Of a stretch of 40,690 nt of DNA, positions 3,034 through 39,173 are shown piece after piece. The notes under the pieces were generated by a model, which was given only the letters and a program-made list of their open reading frames with translations, did not search any database and was not told where the DNA came from. The stretch covers positions 1-40,690 of the forward strand of contig NZ_MAQA01000043.1 of assembly GCF_001692445.1 (NCBI RefSeq), written 5' to 3'. A program made the position numbers and the translations under genes. How positions within the stretch are numbered: the first letter of the stretch is position 1; each line of letters opens with the position of its first letter. Origin of the DNA: Oerskovia enterophila. GTDB taxonomy: Bacteria; Actinomycetota; Actinomycetes; Actinomycetales; Cellulomonadaceae.

Positions 3034-3079
3034 GTTGTCAGAAGTGAGCCGGGGGATACCCCGGTGTGCTTCTGACAGC
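3034..3079 (-). repeat. 46-bp palindromic element, copy 1
   Basis: The arms are GTTGTCAGAA and TTCTGACAGC around a CCGGGG/CCCCGG inner stem. Read on the minus strand, the 15-codon frame gives LSEAHRGIPRLTSDN. It lies between the convergent pit and DUF559 genes, 85 bases before copy 2. Confidence 0.92.
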
Positions 3080-3118
3080 TTTGCTGGTGATGGGGCCTGA
3101 CCGACGTTGCGCTGCTTG

Positions 3119-3164
3119 GTTGTCAGAACTGAGCCGGGGGATACCCCGATGAGCTTCTGACAAC
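3119..3164 (-). repeat. 46-bp palindromic element, copy 2
   Basis: The arms GTTGTCAGAA and TTCTGACAAC are perfect. On the minus strand the frame reads LSEAHRGIPRLSSDN. Its first base is the last base of the TAG stop codon of the DUF559 gene, so the element begins exactly at the end of that gene and in its reading frame. Confidence 0.93.
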
Positions 3165-4117
3165 TACGCGGAAGTCTCCTGCGTTGCCGACCCGAGATGG
3201 TGCCGGAGGATGTCGTAGACCCGGTCCGGTTCCAGCCGGACGGCACCAGCGGGGACCCGGACGACGATGTCCCGCCTGCTCGCGTCGAGCTCGGCCGTGC
3301 GCAACAGGTCCTCGTACCAACGGTCCGGGTCGCTGTGGCCGATCCCGTCGACCTCGACGACCAACCGACGCCCGTCGCGGAGCCGCCACTCGGCGTCGAG
3401 GTAGCGCTGGCGTCCCTGCGAGTCCTTGCGTCGCGCCTGCCGTTCAGGGGCGGGCAGGTCGCGTTCGCGGCAGAACCTGATGAAGTCGATCTCGGCCAAG
3501 GACTGCGAGCCGCCGGCGATGTCGACGAGCGAGGTGCGCATGATGCTCCGGAAGCGGACGGCGCCCACCCGATCGAGCTGTTCGAAGAGCTCGTCGGTCG
3601 TGGCCAGCCCTTGCTGCACCGTGGCGGCGAGCAGGCCGACCGCGGTGCGTGGGTGGCGTTGCCAGGCGGCCGCGTCGACCGCGGCACGCTGTGCTGTGTG
3701 GACGGGGAGGCCGAGGAACGGGCGGATGTCCTCGGGCGCCGGGCGGCGAGACTCGTGGACGACGACGGCGGGGACGCGTGGGGGCCGCGCCCCACGAGCG
3801 ACGACGATGTGGATCCCCGGCCGAGTCCAGCCCGTCAACCCGCGCATCGACAGTGCGGACCACGAGCCGATGGCGACCGTCCCCTGTGCGCTCAGCACCG
3901 CGACCCACCGCCGGGCCGGCTCGGTGACGGGGCCGTTGTGAAGCAGCACGACGTCGCGGGTTGCGAGCGTCCACCGTCTCGCTGCCAGCTGTGCCCTCAC
4001 GTGGTCCCAGGAGACGCCCAGCCCCCGCAGCTGCGTCCGGGTCACCACTCCCTCCTGGTAGTGGTTGATCCGGTGCAGGCCCGGGACTGACTCCAACGCG
4101 TCCGACGTTCCGCTCAT
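3164..4117 (-). CDS. AbiEi-type winged-helix/DUF559 nuclease-like protein
   Basis: This is a 317-residue soluble protein of a type that is abundant and multicopy in actinomycetes. The N-terminal ~60 residues (GVVTRTQLRGLGVSWDHVRA) resemble the winged-helix domain of AbiEi type IV antitoxins. The C-terminal ~110 residues resemble DUF559, a PD-(D/E)XK/Vsr-like nuclease fold, with SLAEIDFIRFCRERDLPAPE, the acidic YLDAEWRL and RLVVEVDGIGHSD, which supply likely catalytic acids. No AbiEii toxin gene is adjacent, so a classic toxin-antitoxin pair is not supported. The ATG at 4117 is the natural start. Two palindromic elements lie downstream and two in the opposite orientation lie upstream. Substrate and role are unknown; nuclease activity is inference from the fold. 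Confidence 0.8.
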   Translation of the reverse strand: MSGTSDALESVPGLHRINHYQEGVVTRTQLRGLGVSWDHVRAQLAARRWTLATRDVVLLHNGPVTEPARRWVAVLSAQGTVAIGSWSALSMRGLTGWTRPGIHIVVARGARPPRVPAVVVHESRRPAPEDIRPFLGLPVHTAQRAAVDAAAWQRHPRTAVGLLAATVQQGLATTDELFEQLDRVGAVRFRSIMRTSLVDIAGGSQSLAEIDFIRFCRERDLPAPERQARRKDSQGRQRYLDAEWRLRDGRRLVVEVDGIGHSDPDRWYEDLLRTAELDASRRDIVVRVPAGAVRLEPDRVYDILRHHLGSATQETSA

Positions 4118-4158
4118 GCCGGGGATTCTTGGCGTCCGCGACGTCGGGCGTCAGAGGG

Positions 4159-4188
4159 CCACCGTCGTCTGTGGACAGAGGACGGTGG
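4159..4188. repeat. Inverted repeat upstream of the DUF559 gene
   Basis: The 12-base arms CCACCGTCGTCT and AGAGGACGGTGG differ from perfect pairing at one position and enclose GTGGAC. The centre lies about 56 bases upstream of the ATG at 4117, a reasonable place for an operator bound by the gene's own winged-helix domain. That role is inference. Confidence 0.45.
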
Positions 4189-4234
4189 GAGTGGGCGGTG
4201 CACGCCGTCGAATGGTGCGCTGTCGCCGCTACCG

Positions 4235-4280
4235 GTTGTCAGAACTCGCCCGGGGTATGGCCCGGCTCAGTTCTGACCAC
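4235..4280 (+). repeat. 46-bp palindromic element, copy 3
   Basis: The arms are GTTGTCAGAACT and AGTTCTGACCAC, with an inner CCGGG/CCCGG stem. The plus-strand frame reads LSELARGMARLSSDH. Its orientation is opposite to copies 1 and 2. Confidence 0.9.
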
Positions 4281-4328
4281 GGGAGCGGGTGAGCCAGGGG
4301 TGTTTGGTTGCTCCGCCGCTCGGCGTGA

Positions 4329-4374
4329 GTTGTCAGAGTTTCCCCGGGGTATGGCCCGGCTCAGTTCTGACAAC
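4329..4374 (+). repeat. 46-bp palindromic element, copy 4
   Basis: The arms are GTTGTCAGAG and TTCTGACAAC. The plus-strand frame reads LSEFPRGMARLSSDN. It lies 94 bases after copy 3 in the same orientation. Confidence 0.92.
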
Positions 4375-4593
4375 ACAGCGGTGGCTGTCACACGTGCTTG
4401 GGTCTCGACCCAGCCTCCGACCCCAGCCTCCGAGCCCCGAGCGCCTGCGCCTTCGAATCGATGAGCCCCCGGGTCCTCGAGCTCCCGGGTCCCCGGGTCC
4501 CCGAGTCCGGAGCGCCGAGGCGTCAGAGCGAGCCCACGCCCCAGGTCCTCCAGGCTTCGACACGGAGACCGAGCTCACCACCACCGGCCCGCC

Positions 4594-5619
4594 TCAGTGC
4601 AGCGGCGGCGCGACCTTCTCCGCCGCGAGGACCCTCGGACCCTTGGGCGTGTCCGCGACGTGCGCCACGAGCATCTCGCCCGGCTCCAGGAACGGGTCCC
4701 GGGTCGGCAGGGCGTTCGCCACGGGGCGTCGCGAGTGCTGCCCCAGGACGTCGAGCACCGTGGGCAGCACGGGTCGGTGCGTGCAGAGCACCGTCGACCG
4801 CTCGGACTCGAGCAGCTCCCGCACCGTGCGGGCGACGCGCGAGGGCGACCGCTCGTGCTGGGCCTCGGACAGGTGGTCGATCGAGATCGTGTCGAGCCCG
4901 GCCGCCTGCGCGTAGGGCGCGATCGTCTGCGCGCACCGGTCCCACCGGCTCGTGACCACGGTGTTGACCCCGTAGGCGGCCAGCACCGGGACCAGCGCGA
5001 CGGACTGCGCGTGGCCCGCGGGCGTGAGCGGCCGGTCCTGCTCGGCCCCGTGCCACGCGGCCCGGGTCACGGCCTTGCCGTGCCGGGCGATCACGACCAC
5101 GCGGGTCGAGAGGCGACCGTGCGTGTACTCCTCGACGAGGGCGGCGAGCGGCCCGCGGTCGGCCTTGCGCGTCACGCGGCGCGCAGCCTCCTCGACACCG
5201 AGCCACTCGGTCGCGTCGATCTCGTCGGGCGACACGGGAGGCACGGGGGCGCGCGCGGCGAGCGGTCCGGCGTCGCGCACGCGCTTGGCCTGCTGCGCGG
5301 CCCAGTAGTGCACGCGCTTGACCCGGCCCTCGGGGGTCAGGTACTGCAGGCCGGGCAGCGGGACTCCGAGGATCACGGGCTTGCCCGTCTCCTCGGCCAC
5401 CTCGCGCACGGCTGCGGTCTGGAACGTCTCGCCCGGGTCGAGCTTGCCCTTGGGCCACGACCAGTCGTCGTAGCGGGGCCGGTGCACGAGCCGCACCTGC
5501 AGCTCGCCGTCGCGCACGCGCCACACGAGCCCGCCGGCCGACTCGATCACGGGGGCGTGCGGGACGTGGGTGGGGCCGAGGGTGTCCACGAGCGGGGCGA
5601 ACGAGGACGGAGAGCTCAT
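4594..5619 (-). CDS. mutT1: NUDIX hydrolase/histidine phosphatase fusion (MutT1-like)
   Basis: This is a 341-residue two-domain protein. The N-terminal NUDIX domain has a complete box at residues 58-80 ([17 protein letters not shown]). The C-terminal histidine phosphatase domain starts at about residue 172, with the catalytic ARHGK (His180) and a second histidine in LCTHRPV. Mycobacterial MutT1 (Rv2985) has the same architecture, hydrolyses 8-oxo-GTP/8-oxo-dGTP and Ap(n)A, and lies beside ppk1 (Rv2984), as here. The ATG at 5619 overlaps the ppk1 stop as ATGA, so translation is coupled. A longer frame upstream in this phase is only the shadow of ppk1. The gene ends the mshD-ppk1-mutT1 operon. 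Family and architecture are clear; exact substrate preference is inferred. Confidence 0.9.
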
Positions 5620-7949
5620 TGACCCATGCCCAGACGACGGCGTTGTCGGGTGATGAGGGTGGACTGGATGTCGGTCAACGGGCCGTCGGGTCCGGTCGCG
5701 TGCCGCACCCACGTCCCGTCCGCCTGCAGGTGCCACGACGCGGTGCCGCTGTCCATCGAGATGTCGATGAGGTCGAGCAGGTTCGTGATCTGGTCGGGGT
5801 CGACGAGCCGCACGAGCGTCTCGACACGGCGGTCGAGGTTGCGGTGCATGAGGTCGGCCGACCCGATGAAGACCTCGGGGCCGGACTCGGGACCGTCGGC
5901 GATGGCCGGGCCGCCCGAGTTGGCGAACGCGAAGATACGCGAGTGCTCGAGGAACCGGCCCAGGATGGACCGCACCCGGATGTTCTCGCTGAGCCCCGGC
6001 ACCCCGGGGCGGATCGCGCAGATCCCGCGGACCACGAGGTCGACCTTCACGCCGGCCTGCGATGCCCGGTAGAGGGCGTCGATGATGGTCTCGTCGACGA
6101 CCGAGTTGACCTTGAACTTGACCCACGCCTCGCGGCCTTCGCGGGCCGCGACGGCCTCGCGCTCGATCCGTTCGACGAGGCCCGAGCGCACCGAGCGGGG
6201 CGCGACGAGCAGGCGGTGGAACCTCGACTGGGGCGCGTAGCCGCTCAGCTGGTTGAACAGGCGCGTGAGGTCCTGGCCGACCTCGGGGTCCGCGGTCAGC
6301 AGCCCGAGGTCCGTGTAGAGGCGCGCGGTCTTGGGGTTGTAGTTGCCCGTGCCGACGTGGCAGTAGCGCACGAGCCCCTCGGGCTCCTGGCGGACCACGA
6401 GCGAGAGCTTGCAGTGCGTCTTGAGGCCGACGATCCCGTACACGACGTGCACGCCCGCCTGCTCGAGCTTGCGCGCCCAGGAGATGTTGGCCTGCTCGTC
6501 GAAGCGTGCCTTGATCTCGACGAGCGCGAGGACCTGCTTGCCGGCCTCGGCCGCGTCGATCAGGGCGTCGACGATCGGCGAGTCGCCCGACGTCCGGTAC
6601 AGCGTCTGCTTGATCGCGAGCACGTTGGGGTCCGCGGCGGCCTGCTGGAGGAACGTCTGGACCGAGGTCGAGAACGAGTCGTACGGGTGGTGCAGCAGGA
6701 TGTCGCGCTCGCGGATCGCCGCGAACACGTCGGTCGGGTTGGCGCTCTCCACCTCGGCGAGGAAGCGGTGCGTGGTCGGCACGAACCGCGGGTAGTGCAG
6801 GTCGGCGCGGTCCAGGTCGGCGATGAGGTTGAGGCCCGTGAAGTCGAGCGGCGCGGGCAGCTTGTAGACCTCGTCGTCCGCGACGTCGAGCTCGCGCACG
6901 AGCAGCTGGCGGATGCGGGGGCTGATCCCGTCGGCGATCTCGAGGCGCACGGGCGGCCCGAACCGCCGACGCAGCAGCTCCTTCTCCATGGCCTGGAGGA
7001 GGTTCTCGGCGTCGTCCTCCTCGACCTCGACGTCCTCGTTGCGGGTCACGCGGAACGTGTGGTGCTCGCGCACCTCCATGCCCGGGAAGAGGTGGTCGAG
7101 GTGCTGGGAGATGACGTCCTCGAGCGGTACGAACGACGTGGGGCCCTTGTCGGGGTCTGCGGCCTGCGTGCTGGGTGCGGACGGGCGGCCCCGCGAGTCG
7201 ACCGCGATGAAGCGCGGCAGCAGCGGCGGCACCTTGACGCGCGCGAAGTGCTCCTTGCCCGTCGTCGGGTTGACCACGACGACGGCGAGGTTGAGCGAGA
7301 GCCCCGAGATGTACGGGAAGGGGTGCGCGGGGTCCACGGCCAGGGGCGTGAGCACGGGGAAGATCTGCTTGCGGAAGAACTTGTGCAGGCGCTCCTGCTC
7401 GCGCGTGTCGAGCTCCTCCCAGCGCAGCAGCGAGATGCCCTCGGTCGCGAGCGCGGGCTGCACCTGGTCGGCGAACACCGCGGCGTGGCGGGCCATGAGC
7501 TCGTGCGCGCGCTCGCTGATCGCGTCGAGCACCTGGCGCGGGGTGAGCCCGGAGGCGGCCGTGACGGCGAGCCCGGTCGCGATGCGTCGCTTGAGGCCGG
7601 CGACCCGGACCATGAAGAACTCGTCGAGGTTCGACGCGAAGATCGCGAGGTAGCGCACGCGCTCCAGCAGGGGCTGCTCGTCGTCCTCGGCGAGCTCGAG
7701 CACGCGCTGGTTGAACGCGAGCCAGCTCAGCTCGCGGTCGGCGAAGCGGTCGGCGGGCAGGGGCTCGGCACTGAGCACCTCCAGGTCGACGGTCCCGGTG
7801 ACGGGCTCCTCCTCGGCGATGTGCTCGGCGATGTGCGCCGCGAGCTCGGGGTCGAGGGCGGGCCGGGGACGGGCGTCGCGAGGAGCCTCCGGCTGCTGGT
7901 CCGGGCGCGCGGGGGTCCGGACGCCGGGACGGACGGTGGAGTCGGTCAT
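5616..7949 (-). CDS. ppk1: Polyphosphate kinase 1
   Basis: This is a 777-residue cytoplasmic enzyme that makes inorganic polyphosphate from ATP, reversibly. All four PPK1 domains fit. The body starts after a ~60-residue Pro/Arg-rich extension, with [19 protein letters not shown]. The middle carries [13 protein letters not shown], and the catalytic core has [21 protein letters not shown], whose histidine (residue 531) is expected to be phosphorylated. The C-terminal part has [14 protein letters not shown] and the [16 protein letters not shown] signature. The ATG at 7949 overlaps the mshD stop as ATGA, and the stop overlaps the mutT1 start the same way. With pit and DUF47 five kilobases away, this half of the window is rich in phosphate metabolism. 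Confidence 0.96.
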
Positions 7950-8944
7950 GGCTTCATGGTGGCATCACTCGGTGAACTTTGGGTGACGGGATGCACAGTC
8001 GGCGGGCCGTACTGCACGTCCACGGTGTCCTTGCCGAAGCCCGCTCCGAGGTAGGTGCGGGTCGCGGCGGCGTTGTCGCCGTCGACGTAGAGGACCGCGC
8101 GCTGGAGGCCCTGGCCCGCGAGGTGCGCGAGCCCGACGGCGGTCAGCACCTTCCCGAGCCCCTGGCCCTGGGCGTCGGGGTCGACGCCGACGACGTAGAT
8201 CTCGCCCTCGCGCGTCGCCCCGGCAGGTGACACGGACGGGTCCGTCGGCACCTTGGTCCACAGGAACCCGGCGAGCGAGCCGTCCTCGCGCTCGAGCAGG
8301 AAGAAGCCCTCGGGGTCGAACCAGTCCTCGGCGACCCGGGCGTCGAGGTCGGCCTGGGTCAGGCGGCCCTGCTCGGGGTGATGGGCGAACGCGCGCGCGT
8401 TGACGCGGAGCCACGCTGCGTCGTCGGGCCCGGGGCGGAACGTGCGCAACCGCAGGCCCGCCGGGACCTCGGGGCGCTCCCACGTGCCGGAGCGCAGGTC
8501 GAGGCCCATCTTCCACAGCTCGCGCACCACGACGAGCCCCGCGTCGGCCGCGAACGCGCGCGCAGCGGGCAGGTCGCCGTGCGCCCACACGTGCAGCGTG
8601 CGGCCGTGCTGGCCGGGCTCGCCCGAGCGGGCGGGCAGGGTCGCGTCGCGCTGCGCGGTGCGCAGCAGCATGCGGCCGGTCCGACGGCGGCGCGCGGCCG
8701 GGTGCACCACGAGCTCGGCGCTCGCGACGTCGCCCCCGCGGTCGATCTGCGCGTACCCCGTGACGGTTCCCGAGTCGTCGTACGTGACGACGTGCGTGAG
8801 GTCCTCGTCGTCGACGCCGAGGCGCAGGAGCGGCTGCTCGGAGAGGGGAGCGACGCCGTCGGACTCGTGCGCGGCGGCGGCCAGGGAGCGGACCTCGTCC
8901 GCGGTGGCCGGGTCGAGCGGGCCGATCTCGAGGGGGGAGTGCAT
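7946..8944 (-). CDS. mshD: Mycothiol synthase
   Basis: This is a 332-residue protein with two tandem GNAT folds. It transfers acetyl from acetyl-CoA to Cys-GlcN-Ins, the last step of mycothiol synthesis, the actinobacterial counterpart of glutathione. The N-terminal GNAT domain carries [16 protein letters not shown]. The C-terminal, catalytic one carries [20 protein letters not shown] and [19 protein letters not shown], both typical of MshD. The ATG at 8944 has GGAG in front of it. The gene heads the operon with ppk1 and mutT1 through four-base overlaps. Only 40 bases separate the start from palindromic element 5, so its promoter must lie in that gap, in the element, or further upstream. Confidence 0.93.
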
Positions 8945-8984
8945 GGCTCCATCCCATCACGACGGGCGCACGGTCACCGACTCA

Positions 8985-9030
8985 GTCGTCAGAACCAGGG
9001 CGGGCTGTACCCCGTGCTGGTTCTGACGAC
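8985..9030 (-). repeat. 46-bp palindromic element, copy 5
   Basis: Perfect 14-base arms GTCGTCAGAACCAG and CTGGTTCTGACGAC enclose an 18-base loop. The third position differs from the other copies on both arms in a compensating way (T to C on one arm, A to G on the other). The minus-strand frame reads SSEPARGTARPGSDD. It lies 16 bases after the esterase stop. Confidence 0.92.
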
Positions 9031-9046
9031 TCATCGGTCCGGTCGT

Positions 9047-10345
9047 TCACGGCTGCGCGAGGTGCTCCGAGACGAACTCCAGCCCGTACGGCAGGCCCGC
9101 ATGGACCATGGCCCACGTGTGTCCCTGGCCGGGCTCCTCGCGCAGCCCGACGGTCTGACCCCGTGCGGTGAGCGCGGCGGCGAGCCGGCGGTTGGCCTCG
9201 CGGTCGAACCGCGGGGCCTCCGTCCCGCCGTCGAGGAAGACCGCGACGGGCGCGGTGAAGTCCATGGTCGGGAGGTAGTGGCTGGGCGAGTTCGCGTCGA
9301 ACTCCTCCTGCGTCGCGAGCATCGCGCGCCCGCCGTCGCCCGGGTCGCCGTAGGGCTCGAGGGCCATGATCGCGCTGAACGTGTCGAGGTGGCGCAGGCC
9401 CAGGTTGAGCGCGCAGAACCCGCCCGACGACGCCCCGCCGATCGCTCGGTGGTCCCGGTCCGGGACCGTCGGGAAGCTCTTGTCGACCCACGGGACCACG
9501 ACGTCGGTCACGTAGGTCTCGACCTGCGCGCCGCCCGTCGTCGAGTCCAGGCACTCGGTGTCGCGCGGTGAGGGGCCGGTCCCGTTGACGTCGACCGCGA
9601 CGAGGATCATGGGCTGGACGAGCTGCGCCTCGAGCAGCGTGTCCATGACGTTGGCGCTGTCGGCCGCCGCGAACCAGTCGCTCGGTTGGCCGGGACTGCC
9701 GTGGAAGAGGTAGACGACGGGGTAGCGGGTCGAGGTCGACGGGTCGAAGCCCGGCGGCGTGTAGACCCACGTGGTGCCGTCGGCCATGCGCAGGTCCGGG
9801 GCCGGCAGCGGCGTCGAGGTCACCGATCCCGCCGCCGACGAGCCCGCGCGCTCCGAGGGCTTGTCGCGATGGCTCGGCGGTGGGTCGACGATCCCCCAGC
9901 CCGCCATCGTGGTGCGGAACGCCGCAGCGTTGGGGACGTAGCCCGCGTACGCGTTGACCGCGACCGTCACGGACAGGACCACGAGGAGCCCTGACGCGAC
10001 CGTCCCGACCCAGGCGCGCCACGCGCCGCGGCGGCCGGGCCTCGCGCTGTCACCGTCACCGTCACCGTCACCGGCGTCCGCGCGTCCGCCGCCGTCGGTG
10101 TCGACGGCGCTGCGCGACGCCCGACGCCGCCTGTCCCACACGACGAGCGCGGCGACCAGGACCGCTGCGGCCGCGAGCAGCCCGGCCGTCCACCAGGACG
10201 ACACCCAGTCGCTGCGTCCCGCGAGCTCGCGCAGCACGGCGGGCGGCAGGGTCGGGGCGGTGTCGGGCTCGGGCAACGGGGCTGCGTCGGCCAGCAAGGA
10301 CGCACCCGGCAGGGCTGCGCCGGGAAGGACGTGGAACGGGCTCAC
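9047..10345 (-). CDS. Membrane-anchored esterase (PF00756, antigen-85-like fold)
   Basis: About 432 residues. The N-terminal part has two hydrophobic segments (LLAAAAVLVAALVVW and VASGLLVVLSVTVAVNAYAG) joined by a charged linker that includes GDGDGDGD. The C-terminal ~270 residues form an alpha/beta hydrolase of the esterase D/antigen 85 family, with RYPVVYLFHGSPG, the nucleophile elbow GGASSGGF, an acid near FLDGGTEAP and the histidine in GQGHTWAMVH. The catalytic domain is probably outside the cell. The start is uncertain: GTG at 10345 gives a sensible N-terminus (VSPFHVLPG), and the frame stays open beyond it into the promoter region of the divergent monooxygenase. The substrate is unknown; a mycolyltransferase role is not implied. 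Confidence 0.82.
   Translation of the reverse strand: MSPFHVLPGAALPGASLLADAAPLPEPDTAPTLPPAVLRELAGRSDWVSSWWTAGLLAAAAVLVAALVVWDRRRRASRSAVDTDGGGRADAGDGDGDGDSARPGRRGAWRAWVGTVASGLLVVLSVTVAVNAYAGYVPNAAAFRTTMAGWGIVDPPPSHRDKPSERAGSSAAGSVTSTPLPAPDLRMADGTTWVYTPPGFDPSTSTRYPVVYLFHGSPGQPSDWFAAADSANVMDTLLEAQLVQPMILVAVDVNGTGPSPRDTECLDSTTGGAQVETYVTDVVVPWVDKSFPTVPDRDHRAIGGASSGGFCALNLGLRHLDTFSAIMALEPYGDPGDGGRAMLATQEEFDANSPSHYLPTMDFTAPVAVFLDGGTEAPRFDREANRRLAAALTARGQTVGLREEPGQGHTWAMVHAGLPYGLEFVSEHLAQP
10049..10072. repeat. Four tandem GTCACC hexamers inside the esterase gene
   Basis: Four perfect GTCACC units encode alternating Asp-Gly in the linker between the two membrane segments on the minus strand. A change in unit number would keep the frame and vary the linker length by two residues per unit. 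Confidence 0.85.
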
Positions 10346-10520
10346 CCTCCCAGGGTGCCCGCCGCGCACAGGTTCCACCGGGCGAACGCCCAGGTGGCCG
10401 CCAAGGTGCACGGGACGTTCACGGACGTTCACGACGTGTCCCCACGCCCGCCGCCGCGCTGTGCGGCGCGTCACGGTCACGGGCCGGATGAGTCCCGCGG
10501 CCCGCGCGGTTGGTACGGGT

Positions 10521-11896: not shown

Positions 11897-11942
11897 GTTG
11901 TCAGAAGTGAGCCGGGGGATACCCCGGTGTGGTTCTGACAAC
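11897..11942 (-). repeat. 46-bp palindromic element, copy 6
   Basis: The perfect outer arms GTTGTCAGAA and TTCTGACAAC enclose a CCGGGG/CCCCGG inner stem. The minus-strand frame reads LSEPHRGIPRLTSDN. It is followed after eight bases by copy 7. Confidence 0.94.
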
Positions 11943-11950
11943 AAGGATCG

Positions 11951-11996
11951 GGTGTCAGAAGTGAGCCGGGGGATACCCCGGTGTGGTTCTGACAAC
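11951..11996 (-). repeat. 46-bp palindromic element, copy 7
   Basis: Identical to copy 6 from the third base to the end, with GGTGTCAGAA in place of GTTGTCAGAA. The minus-strand frame reads LSEPHRGIPRLTSDT. It lies 34 bases upstream of the MFS start. Confidence 0.94.
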
Positions 11997-15413: not shown

Positions 15414-15450
15414 GGGGCTCTTGTCGAGGCCCGCGGGCGAGGCCACGAGG

Positions 15451-15597
15451 CCCGACGGCGGAGCGCACCACGTGCGGTGAGCGCGCCTCGTGGGCGGGGC
15501 CGAGTTGTCAGAACGTGGCCGGGGAATGGCCCGGTGTGGTTCTGACAACTCAACGGGCCTGCCAGGTCCCCGACGGCGGAGCGCACCACATGAGGTG
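15451..15597. repeat. 29-bp direct repeat flanking palindromic element 8
   Basis: The units at 15451-15479 and 15569-15597 match at 27 of 29 bases and start CCCGACGGCGGAGCGCACCA. They lie 118 bases apart and bracket the palindromic element at 15504-15549, with 24 and 19 unrelated bases between unit and element. The spacing is too wide for an ordinary target-site duplication. Confidence 0.75.
15504..15549 (+). repeat. 46-bp palindromic element, copy 8
   Basis: The perfect outer arms GTTGTCAGAAC and GTTCTGACAAC enclose a CCGGG/CCCGG inner stem. The plus-strand frame reads LSERGRGMARCGSDN. It sits between the convergent transporter and acsA genes, where it could end both transcripts. Confidence 0.93.
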
Positions 15598-15673
15598 CCC
15601 TCGGTCGAGGCGCATCAGTCCTCCGGCCCCGGTGTGCCCGGCGCGCCGACCAGCTCGGCGCGCCGGGCCGGGC

Positions 15674-27799: not shown

Positions 27800-27834
27800 C
27801 GTCCACAGGGGCACGGCGGGCGTGGTTGTCCACA
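27800..27834 (+). promoter_or_regulatory. DnaA-box-like pair upstream of tadZ/ssd
   Basis: TTGTCCACA at 27826-27834 equals the high-GC actinobacterial DnaA box. TCGTCCACA at 27800-27808 differs at one base and lies 26 bases away in the same direction. A chance occurrence is possible. Confidence 0.3.
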
Positions 27835-30949: not shown

Positions 30950-31216
30950 GGTGGCTGGTGCTGGTGCTGGTGGTGCTGGTGGTGCTCGTGCTGACGTGCG
31001 AGCGGTGGCGTCCGTGGGACTGCTGCCGATGCTGCCGTCGCTGGCCGAGCTCGGCGGCGGGGAACGGATGCCGGATGATGGTGCGGACGGTCGTGCCGAG
31101 GTGAGCGGCAGGGGCGGTGACTGATCGCAGCCCGGCGCGCGGCGAGCCGAGGACGCGGGACTGGCGGCGTGGTGAGCGAGGCTGGGCTGGCGGCGTGGTA
31201 GCTCGAGGGTGGGGCG
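30950..31216. other. Region after tadC with low-complexity GCTGGT repeat
   Basis: From about 30953 to 30993, degenerate GCTGGT/GGTGCT units follow the tadC stop directly. In one frame they give a Val/Leu-rich stretch (VLVLVVLVVLVL), which might be a remnant of a membrane segment. No start, ribosome binding site or conserved protein supports a gene here. Confidence 0.4.
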
Positions 31217-31528
31217 TCAGCGGCGCCCACGCTGAGAGCCGTCGTCGAGGAGGTCGTCGACGGGACAGCCGAATGCCGCGGCGATGGCGCCGAGGTCGTC
31301 GAGCGACCACGCGACCTTGCCCGTGAAGCGCTGCGAGATCGCGCTCCGTGACCGGCCGAGCAGCTCGGCGAGGTCCTCCTGGCTGATGTCGCGCCGGGCC
31401 GACTCGAGCCGGATCGCGCCGGCAGCGACCCGGCTGAGCTGTACCCCGTACTCGGAGGGCCGGGGGAGATCGTCGAGCGGCCACGAAGGGTCTTCCGGGT
31501 TCGTGTGGGCGAGTGGTCGGGGGAGCAT
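31217..31528 (-). CDS. XRE-family helix-turn-helix regulator
   Basis: This is a 103-residue small cytoplasmic regulator. The HTH is ISQEDLAELLGRSRSAISQRFTGKVAWSLDDLGAIAAAFGCPVDDLL, a complete XRE/Cro-type domain. The N-terminal ~30 residues are Pro-rich. The ATG at 31528 follows GAGG by five bases. It stands alone, with no adjacent toxin, phage or metabolic gene on its strand to name a target. It lies at the left end of the segment that separates the two halves of the tad locus. Confidence 0.82.
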   Translation of the reverse strand: MLPRPLAHTNPEDPSWPLDDLPRPSEYGVQLSRVAAGAIRLESARRDISQEDLAELLGRSRSAISQRFTGKVAWSLDDLGAIAAAFGCPVDDLLDDGSQRGRR

Positions 31529-31775
31529 GTGTGCCTCGCAGGGGTGTGTGGGAATCGGGAGTGGTGTTCGACGAGCGGGCCGTGGTTTCGCTGAGCGAAC
31601 AGCGCTCGCCACAACACTTGGGGGACTCGCCAGACGTTCCTGGACTGCTCGCCGCGGGGTCCTGAACTCGTGGAGTCTCTGAGGCAGCCGGCCACGTGGA
31701 CGAGGTTCAGCGATGCTGCTGATCGGACGCCACTGATCCATGGTGGCCGGTCAGCAGGCCATGGGTCGGGCTTTC

Positions 31776-31807
31776 CACAGGGCCAGGGCCAGGGCCACAG
31801 GGCCAGT
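31776..31807. repeat. CCACAGGGCCAG tandem repeat
   Basis: Units of CCACAGGGCCAG and GGGCCA repeat just after the sigma factor stop (minus strand). It is low-complexity and resembles the GGCCCA array beside the helicase stop. Confidence 0.55.
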
Positions 31808-31816
31808 CCGCCCGAG

Positions 31817-33094: not shown

Positions 33095-33116
33095 GGGCGC
33101 GCGACCGGCGACGAGG

Positions 33117-33464
33117 TCACAGGTCGTCCACGTCCACGACCGGACGCAGCTCGACCGTGTACTGCGGCAGGAGAGCGACGGCCTCGATCGCGGTGTCGAT
33201 GCTCGGCAGCACCGCGACGTAGAAGCCGCCGAGCTGCTCGGCGAGCTCGGCGAACGGACCCTCGGTCACGGTCGCCGTGCCCTCCCGGCTGCGGACCGTC
33301 GTGGCCGCGGCGACCGTGCTGAGCGCCTCCGCGGCCACGATGCTCCCACGGTTCCTGAGGAACGCGGCGAACTCGTCGTGCTGCGCCATGAACCGCGAAC
33401 GTTCCTCCGCGGAGGCAGCAGCCCAGACCTGCTCGTCCCCGTACAGCAGGAACATGACCTTCAC
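33117..33464 (-). CDS. YCII/DGPF-domain protein, second copy
   Basis: This is a 115-residue YCII-related protein: VKVMFLLYGDEQVWAAAS, RFMAQHDEFAAFL, and the family motif TEGPFAELAEQLGGFYVAVLPS (a TEGPF variant of DGPF). Such small ferredoxin-fold proteins accompany ECF42 sigma factors and are required for, or modulate, their activity. The GTG at 33464 lies three bases after the stop of the first copy. Its partner gene downstream is the sigma factor. Confidence 0.9.
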   Translation of the reverse strand: MKVMFLLYGDEQVWAAASAEERSRFMAQHDEFAAFLRNRGSIVAAEALSTVAAATTVRSREGTATVTEGPFAELAEQLGGFYVAVLPSIDTAIEAVALLPQYTVELRPVVDVDDL

Positions 33465-33467
33465 GGC

Positions 33468-33863
33468 TCAGGCCTCCGCCCCTGCGGGCGTGGTCACGGC
33501 GGCGGCGTCTGCCCCGCCGTGATCCACCGTGGGGCGGATCTCGTACGTGCAGCCGTCGCCCGCGAAGACCTCGTCGATGATCGTCACGAGCCCCGGCAGG
33601 TCGTCGCTCACGACCAGGTAGATGCCGCCGATCTGCTCGGCGAGCTCGGTGAACGGGCCCTCGGTCGTCCCGACACCAGGGCGGACCAGGGTCGCCGTCC
33701 CGGCGGCCTCGAGCTCGACACCGCCCGAGATCCGGTGGCCCTCCACCTCGACGCGGCGCGTGAACTCCTCGTGCTGGGCCATGATCTCCTCGGCCAGGTC
33801 CGGGCGCATGGCGGGCGTGCCGTCTTCCGGGGCGTGGATGAGGACTGCGTACTCGGTGCTCAT
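33468..33863 (-). CDS. YCII/DGPF-domain protein, first copy
   Basis: This is a 131-residue YCII-family protein and the first gene of the ECF42 operon. MAQHEEFTRRV and GTTEGPFTELAEQIGGIYLVVSDDL are the family patterns. The last ~15 residues are an Ala-rich tail. The ATG at 33863 has a strong GGAGG (33868-33872) before it. A promoter with the ECF42 pattern lies 42-68 bases upstream, which suggests autoregulation. Confidence 0.92.
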   Translation of the reverse strand: MSTEYAVLIHAPEDGTPAMRPDLAEEIMAQHEEFTRRVEVEGHRISGGVELEAAGTATLVRPGVGTTEGPFTELAEQIGGIYLVVSDDLPGLVTIIDEVFAGDGCTYEIRPTVDHGGADAAAVTTPAGAEA

Positions 33864-33904
33864 GATTCCTCCAGGTGAGTGGGTGGTTGGTCCTTCATCT
33901 CGAT

Positions 33905-33931
33905 GACGCGTGACCACCGACGGAATCGACA
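33905..33931 (-). promoter_or_regulatory. ECF42-type promoter of the YCII-sigma operon
   Basis: On the minus strand TGTCGA (33931-33926) is followed after 17 bases by CGTC (33908-33905), then 41 bases to the ATG. ECF42 factors of Streptomyces recognise TGTCGA at -35 and CGA/TC at -10, so this fits direct autoregulation. Confidence 0.75.
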
Positions 33932-34064
33932 GCCGCTCGCGACCAGTTTCGCCGGTGGCCGCGGGAGGCGCGCGGAGAACAGGACACGGGTTGACCGGTA
34001 CGGGTCGCACGATGGCGACATGAACTCATCGACAAGTCCCGGTGCCCGATGGAGAGAAACCAAT

Positions 34065-35006
34065 ATGCCCGACCCCAGCGACTTCCCCGAGTCGACCCTC
34101 GTCCCGGTCAACGGTGTGGAGCTCGAGGTCTTCGAAGCCGGCCGGCACAACGCAGGACGACCCGTCGTGCTGTGCCACGGCTGGCCGGAGCACGCCTACT
34201 CCTGGCGTCACCAGGTGCCCGCCCTCGTCGAGGCGGGCTACCACGTCATCGTCCCGAACCAGCGAGGCTACGGCGGCTCGTCCCGTCCGGCCGAGGTGAC
34301 GGCGTACGACGTCGAACACCTGTCAGGCGACCTGGTGGCGCTGCTCGACCACTACGGATACGACGACGCCACCTTCATCGGTCACGACTGGGGTGCCTTC
34401 GTCGTCTGGGGACTGACGCTGCTGCATCCGCACCGGGTCAACGGAGTGATCAACCTGAGCCTGCCGTATCAGGAGCGCGGAGAGCGGCCCTGGATCGAGG
34501 TCATGGAAGAGGTGCTGGGCGGTGACTTCTACTTCGTCCACTTCAACCGACAGCCAGGCGTCGCGGACGCCGTGCTCGACGCGAACACCTCCCAGTTCCT
34601 TCGCAACCTGTACCGGAAGAACGAGCCCCCCAGAGAACCTCAGCCCGGCATGGCGATGGCGAACCTCGCCAGAGCGCAGACGCCGCTCGGTGAGCCCGTC
34701 ATGAGCGACAGCGAGCTGGCCGTCTTCGTGTCCGCCTTCGAGTCGACCGGTTTCACGGGCAGCATCAACTGGTACCGGAACCTGGACCGCAACTGGCGCC
34801 TGTTGGCAGACGCGGACCCGATCATCCAGCAGCCCGTGCTCATGATCTACGGCGACCGGGACCTGGTCGCGAGGTCCGAGCGGCTGGCCGAGTTCGTCCC
34901 CCAGGTCGAGGTGGTCACCCTGGACTGCGGTCACTGGATCCAGCAAGAGCTGCCGGACGAGACCAACCGAGCGATCCTCACCTGGCTGGAGCAGCAGGGG
35001 GCCTAG
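34065..35006 (+). CDS. Soluble epoxide hydrolase (alpha/beta hydrolase)
   Basis: This is a 313-residue cytoplasmic enzyme. The oxyanion motif is HGWPEHAYSWRHQ. The nucleophile elbow GHDWGAF carries aspartate, not serine, which separates epoxide hydrolases and dehalogenases from esterases. A lid tyrosine lies in NWYRNLDRNW, a pattern of epoxide hydrolases; the acid is in IYGDRDLVA and the histidine in DCGHWIQQELPDETN. The ATG at 34065 follows GGAGAG by eight bases; an ATG at 34020 is an alternative. Codon use looks slightly less GC-biased than in neighbours, which hints at transfer. It is divergent from the ECF42 operon and might be related to it, though no ECF42 promoter faces it. Confidence 0.9.
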   Translation: MPDPSDFPESTLVPVNGVELEVFEAGRHNAGRPVVLCHGWPEHAYSWRHQVPALVEAGYHVIVPNQRGYGGSSRPAEVTAYDVEHLSGDLVALLDHYGYDDATFIGHDWGAFVVWGLTLLHPHRVNGVINLSLPYQERGERPWIEVMEEVLGGDFYFVHFNRQPGVADAVLDANTSQFLRNLYRKNEPPREPQPGMAMANLARAQTPLGEPVMSDSELAVFVSAFESTGFTGSINWYRNLDRNWRLLADADPIIQQPVLMIYGDRDLVARSERLAEFVPQVEVVTLDCGHWIQQELPDETNRAILTWLEQQGA

Positions 35007-35013
35007 CTTCGAG

Positions 35014-35052
35014 GGGGCGCCGCCGAGCCGCGCGAGGTCACGACGGCGCCCC
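35014..35052 (+). terminator. Hairpin after the epoxide hydrolase
   Basis: Nine-base arms GGGGCGCCG (35014-35022) and CGGCGCCCC (35044-35052) start eight bases after the stop. No T tract follows. Confidence 0.6.
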
Positions 35053-35193
35053 GGCGATGCGGGGTATGCACAGGACGCCTCGTGGGGGCGTGTTCCACAA
35101 CGTCGCCTGCTGTGCGAGCGGGGCGGGGCGCGGGCTCGCCACAGTGGGCGGCACGGCCCACGACAGGTGGGTCACGAGAGCCAGGAGGCACCC

Positions 35194-35406
35194 ATGAAGA
35201 CCATGTATCGGGCGAGAGCGACCGGAGCGGAGCTGCTCGTCCGCGTCTGCGGCGAGGACCCGGAGGCCGGTCTCGCGACGGCCGAGTACGCGGTGGCGAC
35301 CATCGCGGCCGTCGGGTTCGCGGGCCTGCTCATCGCGATCCTCAAGAGCGGCGAGGTGCGCGAGATGCTGCTCGGCATCATCCAGCGCGCCCTGTCGATC
35401 GGGTGA
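35194..35406 (+). CDS. DUF4244 Flp-like pilin
   Basis: This is a 70-residue pilin of the Tad pilus. A 27-residue basic leader is followed by GLATAEYAVATIAAVGFAGLLIAILKSGEVR. Cleavage after the glycine would place the conserved Glu-Tyr at positions 5 and 6, as in Flp pilins, and the hydrophobic helix follows. The ATG at 35194 has AGGAGG five bases upstream, the best ribosome binding site of the locus, which fits a highly expressed structural subunit. The prepilin peptidase that would process it is not in this window. Confidence 0.9.
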   Translation: MKTMYRARATGAELLVRVCGEDPEAGLATAEYAVATIAAVGFAGLLIAILKSGEVREMLLGIIQRALSIG

Positions 35407-35837
35407 GCATGGCGGCCGGCAGGGCGGGGGTGTCGCGGGCGGCGACGTCGCTCCGGGGGATGCGGGGGCGGTCGTGGCGTCGGCCCGGGTGGAGGTTCCC
35501 GGACCGTGAGGGCGGCACCGTGACTGCCGAGCTCGCCCTCGCGCTGCCCGCGGTCGTCCTCGTCCTGGTGGCCGTCCTCACGCTCGCCGCGGCGGCGAAC
35601 GCACAGCTCCAGGCCGCCGACGCCGCTCGCGCCGCTGCCCGGGCCGTCGCGATCGGTGAGGACGACGCGGTGGTGCGCGCCGTCGTCGGGCGGGTGGCCG
35701 GGGCAGACGCCACGGTGACCGTCTCCCGCGGCGACCTGTGGATCGAGGTGCGGGTCGCCAAGCCCGTGGTCGGCGGTTGGCTGTCGAGCTCGCCGCTCCA
35801 GGCGCGCGGGGCTGCGGTCGCGTGGGACGAACCGTGA
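35403..35837 (+). CDS. TadE-like pseudopilin
   Basis: This is a 144-residue protein. An Arg-rich leader precedes GTVTAELALALPAVVLVLVAVLTLAAAANAQLQAADAARAAARA, the TadE/TadG-type N-terminal helix with its glutamate. The remainder is a small extracytoplasmic beta-rich part. I take the GTG at 35403, which overlaps the pilin stop as GTGA; the ATG at 35409 is two codons later. It corresponds to Rv3655c of M. tuberculosis by position. Confidence 0.87.
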   Translation: MSMAAGRAGVSRAATSLRGMRGRSWRRPGWRFPDREGGTVTAELALALPAVVLVLVAVLTLAAAANAQLQAADAARAAARAVAIGEDDAVVRAVVGRVAGADATVTVSRGDLWIEVRVAKPVVGGWLSSSPLQARGAAVAWDEP

Positions 35838-36187
35838 GGCCCGCCGACCAGGGGTCGGGGACCGTGCTCGCGCTCGGTCTGATCGCGGTCGCGCTCGTGC
35901 TGGGGCTCGCGCTCGCGGCCCTGTCGTCCGCGCAGGGCGCGCGAGGGCAGGCTCAGACGGCAGCGGACCTCGCGGCCGTCGCCGGGGCGACAGCCCTCCA
36001 GGGAGGCCGGGACGCGTGCCCGACGGCGCACGAGACCGCGGAGCGCAACGGCGCCATGGTCGCGGCGTGCGCCGAGCAGGGCGACGGCGTGGTCAGGGTC
36101 GACGTCACCCGCGAGGCGACGGGATGGGCCGGGGCGCTCGGGACGGCGCGGGCCGCCGCACGGGCGGGACCGGCGTCGGCGCGGTGA
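35834..36187 (+). CDS. TadG/Rv3654c-like pilus-associated protein
   Basis: This is a 117-residue protein. It opens with GSGTVLALGLIAVALVLGLALAALSSAQGARGQAQTAADLAAVAGATAL, the hydrophobic helix of Rv3654c/TadG-like flp-assembly proteins, then has a short domain with two cysteines (DACPTAHE, VAACAEQ) and an Ala-rich tail. The GTG at 35834 overlaps the TadE stop as GTGA. It ends the pilin half of the tad locus and converges with the helicase gene across a long hairpin. Confidence 0.85.
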   Translation: MRPADQGSGTVLALGLIAVALVLGLALAALSSAQGARGQAQTAADLAAVAGATALQGGRDACPTAHETAERNGAMVAACAEQGDGVVRVDVTREATGWAGALGTARAAARAGPASAR

Positions 36188-36210
36188 GAGGCGCCGACGA
36201 TCGGTGACGT

Positions 36211-36267
36211 CGAGTGCATGATTCGGCTGCGGCACGCCCGGCGAGTCGCAGCCGAATCACGCACTCG
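36211..36267. terminator. Long hairpin between the tad locus and helicase
   Basis: The 21-base arms at 36211-36231 (CGAGTGCATGATTCGG...) and 36247-36267 pair with one mismatch around a 15-base loop. It lies between convergent genes and is likely a bidirectional terminator, or a member of a separate palindromic repeat family. Confidence 0.75.
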
Positions 36268-36279
36268 TCGCACGGCTCG

Positions 36280-36315
36280 GGCCCAGGCCCAGGCCCAGGC
36301 CCAGGCCCCGGCCCC
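36280..36315. repeat. Six tandem GGCCCM hexamers next to the helicase stop
   Basis: Four GGCCCA and two GGCCCC units end two bases before the helicase stop codon (minus strand). Tandem hexamers of this kind can vary in number between strains. Confidence 0.8.
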
Positions 36316-36317
36316 GG

Positions 36318-39173
36318 TCACGCAGGCGCGTACGCGAGCACCGCGTCGAGCAGCCGGACCGCCGCAGCCTTGTCGAGCGGGTTGTTGAAGTTGCCGCACT
36401 TGGGCGACTGCACGCACGCGGGGCAGCCGTCCGTGCACGGGCAGCGCGAGATCGCGGCCCGGGTCGCGCGCAGCCACGTCGCGCCCAGGTGGAAGCCGCG
36501 CTCGGCGAAGCCCGCGCCGCCGGGGTACGCGTCGTACACGAACACCGTCGCCTGCTCGGTGTCGACGTGCGTCGCGGTCGAGACCCCGCCCAGGTCCCAG
36601 CGGTCGCACGTCGCGAGCAGCGGCAGGAGACCGATCGACGCGTGCTCGGCCGCGTGCAACGCACCCGGTGCCGTCTCGGCGTCGATGCCCGCGGCCTCGA
36701 GGACCTCGGCCGGGACCGTCCACCACACGGCGGTCGTCGGGAGCGTGTGCTCGGGCAGGTCGAGCGGTTCGGTGCCCAGGATCTGCAGGTCCGGCAGGCG
36801 GCGGCGCTGGAAGCTCACGACCTGGCTCGTGACCTCGACCGGCCCGAACCCCCAGCCGATCGGCCCCCACCAGCGCTGGATCGCGGGGTGCGCGGCGTCG
36901 TTCGGGGCCGAGCCCCGCGGGACGGACGGCTCGTCGCCCGGGGCGGGCTCCGCCGTCGGGCCGTCGCCCGTCGCGTCGCCCGTCGGGGCGTCGCCGGACG
37001 GGGCGGACCCGGCCGAGGCGGGGGTCTCGCTCTCCTGCTCGTCGCGGATCCCGTGGATCGCGATCTCCGTGACCGAGCGCGACCACGTCCCGAAGTCGAC
37101 GTCCCGGCGCGCGACGAGCGCGATGCCGTCGCGCAGGTCGAGCGTCTCCACGACGTAGCTCACGCCCTGGTGCACGTAGACCGCGCCGTCGTGGACCGAG
37201 CCGTCGGCCGAGGCCGCGTCGACCGTGCCGAGGAGGCGCCCCGTGCCGGCCTCGACCACGCGCACGGGCGAGCCACCCGAGCCGCGCAGGTCGGTCATGG
37301 CGGCGGCGGACTGGGCATGGGTCCAGTACCACCCGGACGCCCGACGGCGCAGCGCACCTCGCGCGACCAGCACACCCAGGAGCTCGGTCACCGCGGCGGG
37401 GTCGCCGAACACGGCGAGGTCGGACTGCCTGAGCGGGACCTCGGCGGCCGCCGCGCACAGGTGCGGCGCGAGGACGTACGGGTTGGCAGGGTCGAACACC
37501 GTGGCCTCGAGCGGGGCCGCGAAGATCGCCTCGGGGTGGTGCACGAGGTAGGTGTCGAGCGGGTCCTCGCGCGCGACGAACGCCACCAGGCCGTCGGCTC
37601 CCGCGCGCCCCGCGCGCCCCGCCTGCTGCCAGACCGACATGCGCGTGCCCGGCCAGCCCGCGATGAGGACCGCGTCGAGGCCCGAGATGTCGACGCCCAG
37701 CTCGAGCGCGTTGGTCGTCGCGAGGCCCCGGATCGCGCCGCTGCGCAGGGCCTGCTCGAGCGCCCGGCGCTCCTCGGGCAGGTAGCCGCCGCGGTAGGCC
37801 GCGACCCGGCGTGCGAGCTGGGGCGAGACGACGCGCAGGTGGTCCTGGGTCTGCGTCGCGACGGCCTCGGCCCCACGGCGCGAGCGCGTGAACGCGAGGG
37901 TCCGGGCGCCTGCTGCCGTGAGGTCGGCCAGGAGGTCCGCTGCCTCGGCCGTGGCCGACCGGCGCGGGCGCTCGGGTGAGTCGCCGGGCGTCGCGGGCTC
38001 GTCGGGGTCGCTCGTCAGGCCCAGCTCGTCGTGGGCCGTGGGGTCGATCAGGAGGGACTCCGCGAGGGCCGCGTCGGCCGCCGGGTCGTTCGCTGCCGCG
38101 GCGCGGGCCTGCGCGGCCTCGTAGCCGAGGACCTCGGGAGGTTGCCAGAGCGCGAACGTCTTGCGGCCCGCGGGGCTCGTGTCGGTGTCGACCGTGACGA
38201 TCTGCTCGGACGGGACCCCGATGAGCCGGCCGGCGCTCGCCGCAGGGTCGGCCGTGGTGGCCGAGGCGACGACGAACGTGAGGCCCCGCGCGGACCCGGT
38301 GTCAGGAGCGGGCCGGTCCATACCCCGGCGTGGTTCTGACAACCCCGCCGGTGGCGCGGGCGCGTAGTGCGCCGAGAGCCGGGCGAGGCGTCGCAGCACG
38401 AGCGCCACGTGCGCCCCGAACACCCCCCGGTACGAGTGCCCCTCGTCGACGACGACGTAGCGCAGGTTGCGCAGGAACCGGGTCCAGCGCCGGTGGTTGG
38501 GCATGAGCGCGAAGTGCAGGAAGTCGGGGTTGGTCAGCACGACGTCGGCGTACTCCTGGACCCACTTGCGCTCCTCGAACGAGGTGTCGCCGTCGCACGT
38601 CGAGACCTTGACGTCGTTCGCGCGCGACGCGTCGAGCAGGCGCTGGAGACCGTCGACCTGGTCGGCCGCGAGAGCCTTGGTCGGGCTCAGGTAGAGGACC
38701 GTGCCGCGCGTCCGGGCGCTCTCGATCCGGCCGGGGGCCAGGGTCTCGGCCGCGCGGTCCGCGCGCACCGCGGTGAGCGCGGGCAACCAGAACGCGAGCG
38801 ACTTGCCCGAGCCGGTCGAGGTCGCGAGCGCGACGTGCCGCCCCGACCAGGCGGCCTCGGCCGCCTCGACCTGGTGCGCCCACGGTCGCTCCACGCCCAT
38901 CGAGCGGTAGCCCGCCACGAGCGAGGCGTCGGCCCAGCCGGGCCAGTCGGCGTGCTGCCCGGGGCGCCCGGGCAGGTGCTCGACGTGCGTCAGCCGGTCG
39001 GCGCGACGGCCGCCCGCGAGCAGGACGTCGAGCAAGGCGCCGGGGCGGTCGGACACGGTCGGCAGACCGGTGCTGGTGCTGTCGCGAGCGTCCGGGGCGC
39101 CGGACCTCGAGGAGCCGTTCGACGGGCTGGTCGACGCGGCGTCCGGTTCCGGGGGTCGCGACGGGCTGGGCAC
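36318..39173 (-). CDS. DEAD/DEAH-box helicase with DUF1998 domain (MrfA/Hrq1-like)
   Basis: This is a 951-residue superfamily 2 helicase. Motif I is ATSTGSGKSLAFWLPAL, motif II is VVDEGHSY (DEGH), and motif III is VVASATT. The second RecA domain has TNALELGVDISGLDAVLIAGWPGT and motif VI WQQAGRAGRAG. The C-terminal DUF1998/MZB domain has VYDAYPGGAGFAERGF and the four cysteines of CPCTDGCPACVQSPKCG, which bind zinc in Bacillus MrfA, a mitomycin-repair helicase. It corresponds to Rv3649 next to the tad locus in M. tuberculosis. Two low-complexity insertions are present (residues ~395-425 and ~710-750). Residues 278-292 (LSEPRRGMDRPAPDT) are encoded by a palindromic element inserted in frame. The GTG at 39173 is the start. 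Confidence 0.92.
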   Translation of the reverse strand: MPSPSRPPEPDAASTSPSNGSSRSGAPDARDSTSTGLPTVSDRPGALLDVLLAGGRRADRLTHVEHLPGRPGQHADWPGWADASLVAGYRSMGVERPWAHQVEAAEAAWSGRHVALATSTGSGKSLAFWLPALTAVRADRAAETLAPGRIESARTRGTVLYLSPTKALAADQVDGLQRLLDASRANDVKVSTCDGDTSFEERKWVQEYADVVLTNPDFLHFALMPNHRRWTRFLRNLRYVVVDEGHSYRGVFGAHVALVLRRLARLSAHYAPAPPAGLSEPRRGMDRPAPDTGSARGLTFVVASATTADPAASAGRLIGVPSEQIVTVDTDTSPAGRKTFALWQPPEVLGYEAAQARAAAANDPAADAALAESLLIDPTAHDELGLTSDPDEPATPGDSPERPRRSATAEAADLLADLTAAGARTLAFTRSRRGAEAVATQTQDHLRVVSPQLARRVAAYRGGYLPEERRALEQALRSGAIRGLATTNALELGVDISGLDAVLIAGWPGTRMSVWQQAGRAGRAGADGLVAFVAREDPLDTYLVHHPEAIFAAPLEATVFDPANPYVLAPHLCAAAAEVPLRQSDLAVFGDPAAVTELLGVLVARGALRRRASGWYWTHAQSAAAMTDLRGSGGSPVRVVEAGTGRLLGTVDAASADGSVHDGAVYVHQGVSYVVETLDLRDGIALVARRDVDFGTWSRSVTEIAIHGIRDEQESETPASAGSAPSGDAPTGDATGDGPTAEPAPGDEPSVPRGSAPNDAAHPAIQRWWGPIGWGFGPVEVTSQVVSFQRRRLPDLQILGTEPLDLPEHTLPTTAVWWTVPAEVLEAAGIDAETAPGALHAAEHASIGLLPLLATCDRWDLGGVSTATHVDTEQATVFVYDAYPGGAGFAERGFHLGATWLRATRAAISRCPCTDGCPACVQSPKCGNFNNPLDKAAAVRLLDAVLAYAPA
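38298..38343 (-). repeat. 46-bp palindromic element, copy 9, inside the helicase gene
   Basis: The right arm GGTTCTGACAAC is intact, while the left arm GGTGTCAGGAGC is degenerate. The minus-strand frame is the helicase frame and encodes residues 278-292, in the segment just before motif III (VVASATT). Confidence 0.9.

Follow-up and report, generated by a model that had tools for sequence, protein, structure and literature searches.

Dispersed 46-bp palindromes of Oerskovia and their association with a gene for an AbiEi-like protein with a probable nuclease end

We analyzed a 40,690-nucleotide stretch of Oerskovia enterophila DNA (contig 43 of a 4.65-Mb genome, here G000; the whole stretch is called the window), in which a first-pass annotation had described nine 46-bp palindromic elements. 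These palindromes, which occur inside as well as between genes of soil actinobacteria, are associated with a gene of the window (3164–4117, minus strand) whose predicted product joins an AbiEi-like N-terminal region to a probable DUF559/Vsr-like C-terminal nuclease domain, and the association of gene and elements is strongly supported. We consider it probable that palindromes and gene together form a two-component selfish DNA, in which the palindromes are dispersed and non-autonomous and the flanked AbiEi-DUF559 gene is the partner. A system that resembles REPtrons, but is built on an unrelated nuclease that would move or convert the elements, is our best reading of the data. The alternative raised earlier, that an absent transposase had spread the elements, is probably incorrect, with a likely partner gene inside the window.

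All nine copies were recovered with 0–2 mismatches to GTTGTCAGAA-N26-TTCTGACAAC, and 100 shuffles gave 0 matches (mean 0.00). The element is a dyad of 46 bp built around a core of 42 bp, TGTCAG-N30-CTGACA. In G000 the pattern occurs 88 times at ≤3 mismatches of 16, with none in the reversed control, and the genome-wide family that had been predicted is thus borne out. When the spacer was freed to 22–52 bases, 62 exact end matches were obtained in G000, and the span between the TGTCAG and CTGACA ends was exactly 42 bp in all but two of the matches listed. Weak conservation extends ∼13 bp outward on the flank, around GGAYNA just before the element, and judged from these flanks the full unit may be near 70 bp. 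Near-identical copies sit at unrelated places within one window. At least one match (≤2 mismatches) was present in 52/150 genomes of the bacterial family, and exact TGTCAG-N30-CTGACA ends were present in 33/197 genomes of the class, where single matches are partly due to chance. Relatives with the same element type belong to Oerskovia and Antribacter. The copies are therefore neither few in the genome nor represented in relatives by unrelated terminators only, the two outcomes that had been named as speaking against a family.

In the window all nine copies lie on the plus strand. Copies 1 (3034–3079) and 2 (3119–3164), both of the type termed type I below, flank one side of the nuclease-like gene, the last base of copy 2 overlapping its stop codon, and the type I copies 3 (4235–4280) and 4 (4329–4374) lie on the opposite side. 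Copies 5 (8985–9030), 6 (11897–11942) and 7 (11951–11996, 54 bp from copy 6) are intergenic, copy 8 (15504–15549) is located between convergent genes, and copy 9 (38298–38343) lies within a helicase gene, between domains.

The candidate partner gene, between copies 1–2 and copies 3–4, encodes a protein of 317 amino acids, and its neighbours in the window encode a PHO4 transporter and a NUDIX protein. PADLOC AbiEi models matched the window protein (3.8e-20). A homologue at locus L164 (loci carry L numbers and genomes G numbers) passed the Pfam DUF559 cut-off (24.2 vs. 20.6 bits), and among ten further homologues scanned DUF559 was detected at E<0.1 in five, with one (L164) above the cut-off. 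Six residues of the C-terminal part (E209, D211, D241, E255, D257 and H261) are invariant in a 19-row alignment (A1).

The partner gene was found in 23/150 family genomes (E≤1e-20; best 15 candidates scored), 18 of which gave one match, and class-wide a homologue was present in 130/394 genomes (E≤1e-25); AbiEi-DUF559 proteins have many paralogues in actinobacteria. No match to the window protein was obtained in 72,556 plasmid records, one match (32% identity) occurred in a phage-labelled record, and no relative was confirmed in viral contigs. NCBIfam returned nothing for it, and the single match among solved structures (E 0.16) was taken as chance.

Elements recur beside this gene. A tblastn search over 129 sequences yielded five distinct partner genes, all bordered by elements on both sides. 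Flanks were then scored within 700 bp of the gene, requiring ends with ≤2 mismatches of 12 and ≥12 of 21 pairs. Under this rule elements were present on both sides in 23/27 partner-gene loci (that of the window included), 14 of the 23 with two per side; a shuffled control gave 1 such match in 103 kb. Of the loci outside the 23, L149 (a fragment) shows exact ends on either side, the distant L151 and L155 carry other palindromes that recur on both flanks, and in L146 just one flank bears an element. The spacing of flanking pairs was 61–63 bp in 27 of 31 cases from 20 loci, a tally that excludes L130 and the widely spaced pairs of L143, L144 and L153. At the class level, beyond the family (L158–L186), 18/29 loci share equal-span palindromic 6-mers on both flanks (run ≥2), compared with 1/1,328 random Oerskovia intervals and 14/797 mismatched flank pairs, the latter rising to 62/870 if pairs both carrying a TGTCAG palindrome are kept. 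The flank tags vary by lineage and include TGTCCG, CGTCAT, TGGATG and CGTGTG.

At L151 (G020) and L155 (G005, second copy) the homologues are 38–41% identical and have CGTCCG-tagged palindromes on both sides, which suggests that further gene-palindrome pairs exist. Two genomes, G123 (L131 and L152) and G144 (L137 and L153), carry two homologues each, and each homologue is bordered by its own element type.

Gene and dispersed elements also occur together. Counting copies at ≤2 mismatches, the gene was present in 20/35 family genomes with ≥5 copies vs. 3/115 with fewer (Fisher p ∼1e-12, uncorrected for relatedness). Moreover, 57/62 dispersed elements from 10 genomes were closest, among 28 sets, to the elements that flank the gene in their own genome or in a named sister; the 62 were hand-picked from lists (8 of 81 for G000, some of those listed for the others), and the sister set was counted as a match for G059, G319, G309, G078 and G032.

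Within Oerskovia a second element type was recognized, type II, which agrees with type I in its ends and length and differs in its interior, e.g., AGCGTGACCTCGAGGTCACGCT. In the stretches fetched, type I accounted for 76/81 elements in G000 and 4/4 in G023, whose partner proteins are 97% alike, and type II for 10/10 in G043 and 11/11 in G059, whose proteins are ∼57% like P0001. In G043 and G059 the gene occupies this locus in inverted orientation, again between the PHO4 and NUDIX genes, and the neighbouring DNA is ∼88–94% alike. Element type thus follows the nuclease allele in the Oerskovia stretches compared, with few exceptions.

To compare orthologous sites, 14 G000 elements were aligned with six other Oerskovia genomes. 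Element sites are polymorphic among these genomes, in agreement with the gain and loss between relatives that had been anticipated; copy 8, for example, is absent from 6/6 aligned relatives. At 6 of the 14 sites some relative holds a type II element at the aligned position (8985 and 38298 of the window; L026:1696, L026:12154, L034:12282 and L034:12950). The copy 5 site (8985) is occupied by type II in G059 and by no element in the other five relatives, and at the copy 9 site (38298) G043 holds type II. The site L026:12154 is occupied by type I in G000, by type II in G059, G043 and G095, and by a decayed copy in G023 and G073. The G000 copies at L034:12282 and L026:12154 have extra sequence on one side, so the change exceeds 46 bp there. 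From these alignments, old sites seem to switch type in situ. At L189 (G085), which is orthologous to L026:12154, a further palindrome type is present, CGTCGGACGC...GCGTCCGACG.

Placement was analyzed for 81 G000 copies in ∼0.53 Mb of stretches chosen around listed elements, which are not a random sample, with gene models from a codon-usage predictor; the copies were detected by another rule than the pattern behind the count of 88. Tandem spaces hold 29 copies, convergent spaces 19 and divergent spaces 1, 8 copies are at stretch edges, and predicted genes contain the remaining 24. Spaces of ≥50 bp in these stretches number 302, of which 174 are tandem, 55 convergent and 73 divergent. In the window 1/9 copies (38298) is inside a gene, and the other eight are intergenic in the gene models. 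The polarity of the element centre relative to gene direction was also scored (with:against), giving 13:0 for tandem and 1:14 for in-gene copies in a first batch, and 2:5 and 2:2, respectively, in a second; the signal of the first batch being gone in the second, polarity was dropped as evidence.

The 24 in-gene copies, distributed over 19 predicted genes, are all read in one frame, LSE...SDN. The open frame of 15 codons noted in the first-pass annotation is indeed present, but it is a near-automatic property of the sequence, being open in 161/162 element strands. What had been proposed by analogy with Rickettsia palindromic elements, an in-frame presence in genes, holds for every in-gene copy. 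A second frame is open in just 2/162 element strands, and the third frame in 23/24 in-gene copies. Because 24/24 share one frame though another is open in 23/24, persistence in genes depends on the frame, and probably on the encoded peptide too. Pfam was run on 11 of the 19 host genes, and each of the 11 gave matches: a helicase, an MFS transporter, two histidine kinases, a PutA-like protein, an NHL/thioredoxin protein, a NirB-like protein, a molybdopterin oxidoreductase, a P-type ATPase, a biotin carboxylase and an ABC transporter. By the limits of the Pfam matches, the element lies between domains or in a tail in 8/11 of these hosts. It falls inside a match in two, the P-type ATPase and the MFS transporter, and is probably within the ATPase domain of the second kinase (L043). 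The window example is a DEAD/MrfA-type helicase gene (36318–39173, minus strand), in which copy 9 contributes residues ∼277–293 in frame, with Pfam matches to DEAD (99–268), Helicase_C (415–525) and MZB.

The first-pass annotation had also deduced selection on a hairpin from apparently compensating changes in copy 5. Left and right arms were compared within one element and against arms drawn from other elements. In G000 (48 elements) the arms matched at 478/720 positions vs. a mean of 470.2 for shuffled arms (p 0.24), a chance level that leaves hairpin selection unsupported. No excess was seen in G050 plus G129 (26 elements, p 0.81) or in G269 (10 elements, p 0.82), and a fourth set (31 elements) gave a weak excess (p 0.0145). 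When Watson-Crick and GU pairs were counted together in 37 oriented G000 copies, pairing was slightly above shuffles (590 vs. 578.6, p 0.034). The TGTCAG and CCGG positions are near-invariant and hence outside the reach of this test. Some half-site positions are constant only as G/C or A/T class (62/62 in one set). Because the arms vary independently and positions are fixed only as G/C or A/T, a folded strand agrees less well with the arm data than does recognition of the duplex by a symmetric protein.

We propose the following scheme. The protein, usually encoded by a single-copy gene with palindromes on both sides and fusing an AbiEi-like DNA-binding part to a DUF559/Vsr-like nuclease, would bind the dyad as an inverted pair of ∼23-bp half-sites and would cut or nick there. 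Repair or strand transfer would then put copies of the resident element type at new positions and in place of older elements, much as happens in homing or in REP (repetitive extragenic palindromic) spread, and the in-gene survivors would be copies that add a tolerated polar peptide (LSE...SDN). More tentatively, and with somewhat less confidence than in the two-component reading as such, these genes may form a new class of prokaryotic selfish DNA, in which each AbiEi-DUF559 allele copies its own dyad of ∼42–46 bp (∼70 bp with flanks) and overwrites rival dyads, the copies of a genome switch type upon gene replacement, and many palindrome families result.

Several observations weigh against a two-component selfish DNA. 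In Pfam the window protein matches DUF559 (E 0.11) and AbiEi_3_N (E 0.061) only weakly. No homologue was detected at E≤1e-20 in 15/35 element-rich genomes, among them three Oerskovia (7, 24 and 26 copies) and G077 (107 copies); gene loss or the limit of 15 scored candidates could lie behind this gap. At this threshold G085, G095 and G073 show no partner gene, and two decayed elements, judged by eye, remain at the partner locus of G085. Shared flanking palindromes of run ≥2 are lacking in 11/29 class-level loci; in two of these the right flank is shorter than 100 bp, and L165 carries exact TGTCAG ends on either side. Nor does type follow allele strictly, as five G000 copies score type II under a crude typing rule, and at a histidine-kinase site G059, a type II genome, bears a decayed, CCGG-bearing type I-like palindrome. 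Neither a target-site duplication nor a clean boundary was found at the aligned sites; at the molybdopterin site, alleles that lack the element fall short by 45, 51 or 54 nucleotides. Finally, the data would also fit a DNA-binding protein with many co-evolving sites.

That last explanation is the main rival: the dyads would be immobile sites at which a regulator or nucleoid protein, namely the AbiEi-like protein itself, binds duplex DNA, and they would co-evolve with that protein. AbiEi-type proteins bind inverted repeats, the arms behave as independent half-sites in G000, and positions constant only as G/C or A/T could reflect groove or shape readout; the type switch is also explained. It deals poorly with the 24 copies inside predicted genes, with the single copy in divergent spaces (1/81, though 73/302 spaces are divergent), with near-identical copies at unrelated places in one window, and with the gain and loss of sites among close relatives, and we regard it as unlikely. 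We give a lower chance to intrinsic transcription terminators or 3′-end RNA hairpins, even though convergent and tandem spaces together hold 48/81 copies and divergent spaces 1, the centre followed gene direction in 13/13 informative tandem copies of the first batch, and Watson-Crick plus GU pairing is in slight excess. The second batch had 2 copies with and 5 against gene direction (15:5 overall), Watson-Crick pairing of the G000 arms is at chance, and 24 copies are inside predicted genes. The generic terminators offered earlier as an alternative likewise find no support, given the invariant length among the matches listed, an Rfam search of the window that returned nothing at gathering scores, and copies inside real genes.

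Two further rivals invoke a transposase. Miniature inverted-repeat transposable elements of an ordinary DDE insertion sequence, with the autonomous copy missed, would account for inverted half-sites, dispersed copies and presence or absence among relatives. Half-site matches are near balance (76 forward, 78 reverse), no solitary ends bracket a transposase among the matches listed, aligned sites lack a target duplication, and the recurrent neighbour is the AbiEi-like gene, so that this origin appears very improbable. REP/REPIN-type elements moved by a REP-associated tyrosine transposase (RAYT, or TnpA-REP) are the least credible of all. Small and often paired palindromes, mostly on the 3′ sides of genes, with a single-copy flanked gene and some in-gene copies, do follow the REPtron pattern. 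However, Y1_Tnp (PF01797) was found in 0/7 Oerskovia genomes, with 5/14 control genomes positive, the foot tag of the window elements is TGTCAG, neither GTAG nor CGTC, and arm pairing in G000 is at chance. We consider a RAYT origin as largely refuted already.

A two-component selfish DNA with a nuclease-like partner invites comparison with known systems. Like REPtrons (REP-RAYT or REPIN systems, with features taken from parts of PMC8266576 and PMC3733652), it has many short palindromes, often in pairs, and one usually single-copy gene flanked by them; the palindrome type goes with the cognate protein, and the copies are mostly extragenic, on the 3′ sides of genes, with some inside genes. It differs in that the protein has an AbiEi-like region and a probable DUF559/Vsr-like end instead of an HUH/Y1 tyrosine transposase, in the TGTCAG tag of the window and relatives (not GTAG/CGTC), and in the absence of arm covariation in G000, with one fixed dyad of 42–46 bp. 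Some distant loci carry tags that contain CGTC, e.g., CGTCAT and CGTCCG.

Rickettsia palindromic elements also occur in frame in unrelated coding genes and add a short peptide; we know of no cognate gene for them. They are ∼150 bp long in the portion of PMC10969869 consulted, vs. 46 bp here (perhaps 70 bp with flanks).

Homing endonuclease families and Vsr-like nucleases have related catalytic folds. PD-(D/E)XK and EDxHD (Vsr-like) are named as homing endonuclease families in the part of PMC6083498 consulted. As with such enzymes, the nuclease gene would impose its own DNA type, by copying, on sites that hold a different one. Unlike them, no intron or intein was seen here, targets are many and dispersed in each genome, the nuclease gene itself is not multiplied, and cleavage is a proposed step. 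The N-terminal region is related to AbiE antitoxins (AbiEi; the PADLOC match), from which the protein differs by its C-terminal nuclease-like region and by its scanned neighbours, the PHO4 transporter and the NUDIX protein in place of an AbiEii toxin.

The open-access literature, covered mostly through titles and abstract openings, yielded no description of these elements or of AbiEi/DUF559 proteins with palindromes, and nothing that pairs AbiEi with DUF559. The pairing of element and nuclease gene looks like an undescribed kind of selfish DNA. It ties a common, unexplained actinobacterial protein family to dispersed palindromes and to short in-frame protein insertions. If the mechanism is true, it would be a second, independent solution to the role of RAYT-REP systems, with a nuclease instead of a tyrosine transposase. 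Sites that hold type I in one genome and type II in another are natural before/after pairs for the study of element spread, and the elements of other genomes could be read from their flanking genes.

Other repeats were observed in the window, where a tRNA search gave none, and beyond it. Beside copies 1 and 2, at 2981–3016, lies a decayed type II palindrome, a self-complementary 36-bp repeat whose interior matches the type II elements of G043 and G059. Two similar 41-bp direct repeats (15447–15487 and 15565–15605) bracket copy 8; two further copies, at 27833 and 37336, were found, and the pair may represent either a common repeat or a long duplication of the target. Elsewhere in G000, a long near-perfect palindrome (CCGAGAAGTGAGCAGATGCC... 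inverted) at L026:4805–4915 (C1, ∼59.8 kb) has more copies in several Oerskovia genomes and is a separate repeat family without TGTCAG ends. In the region of the NirB-like gene, L034:10870–10960 (C8, ∼67.9 kb) holds a second palindromic repeat family (CGAGATGCGGCC...), which also has more copies across Oerskovia genomes.

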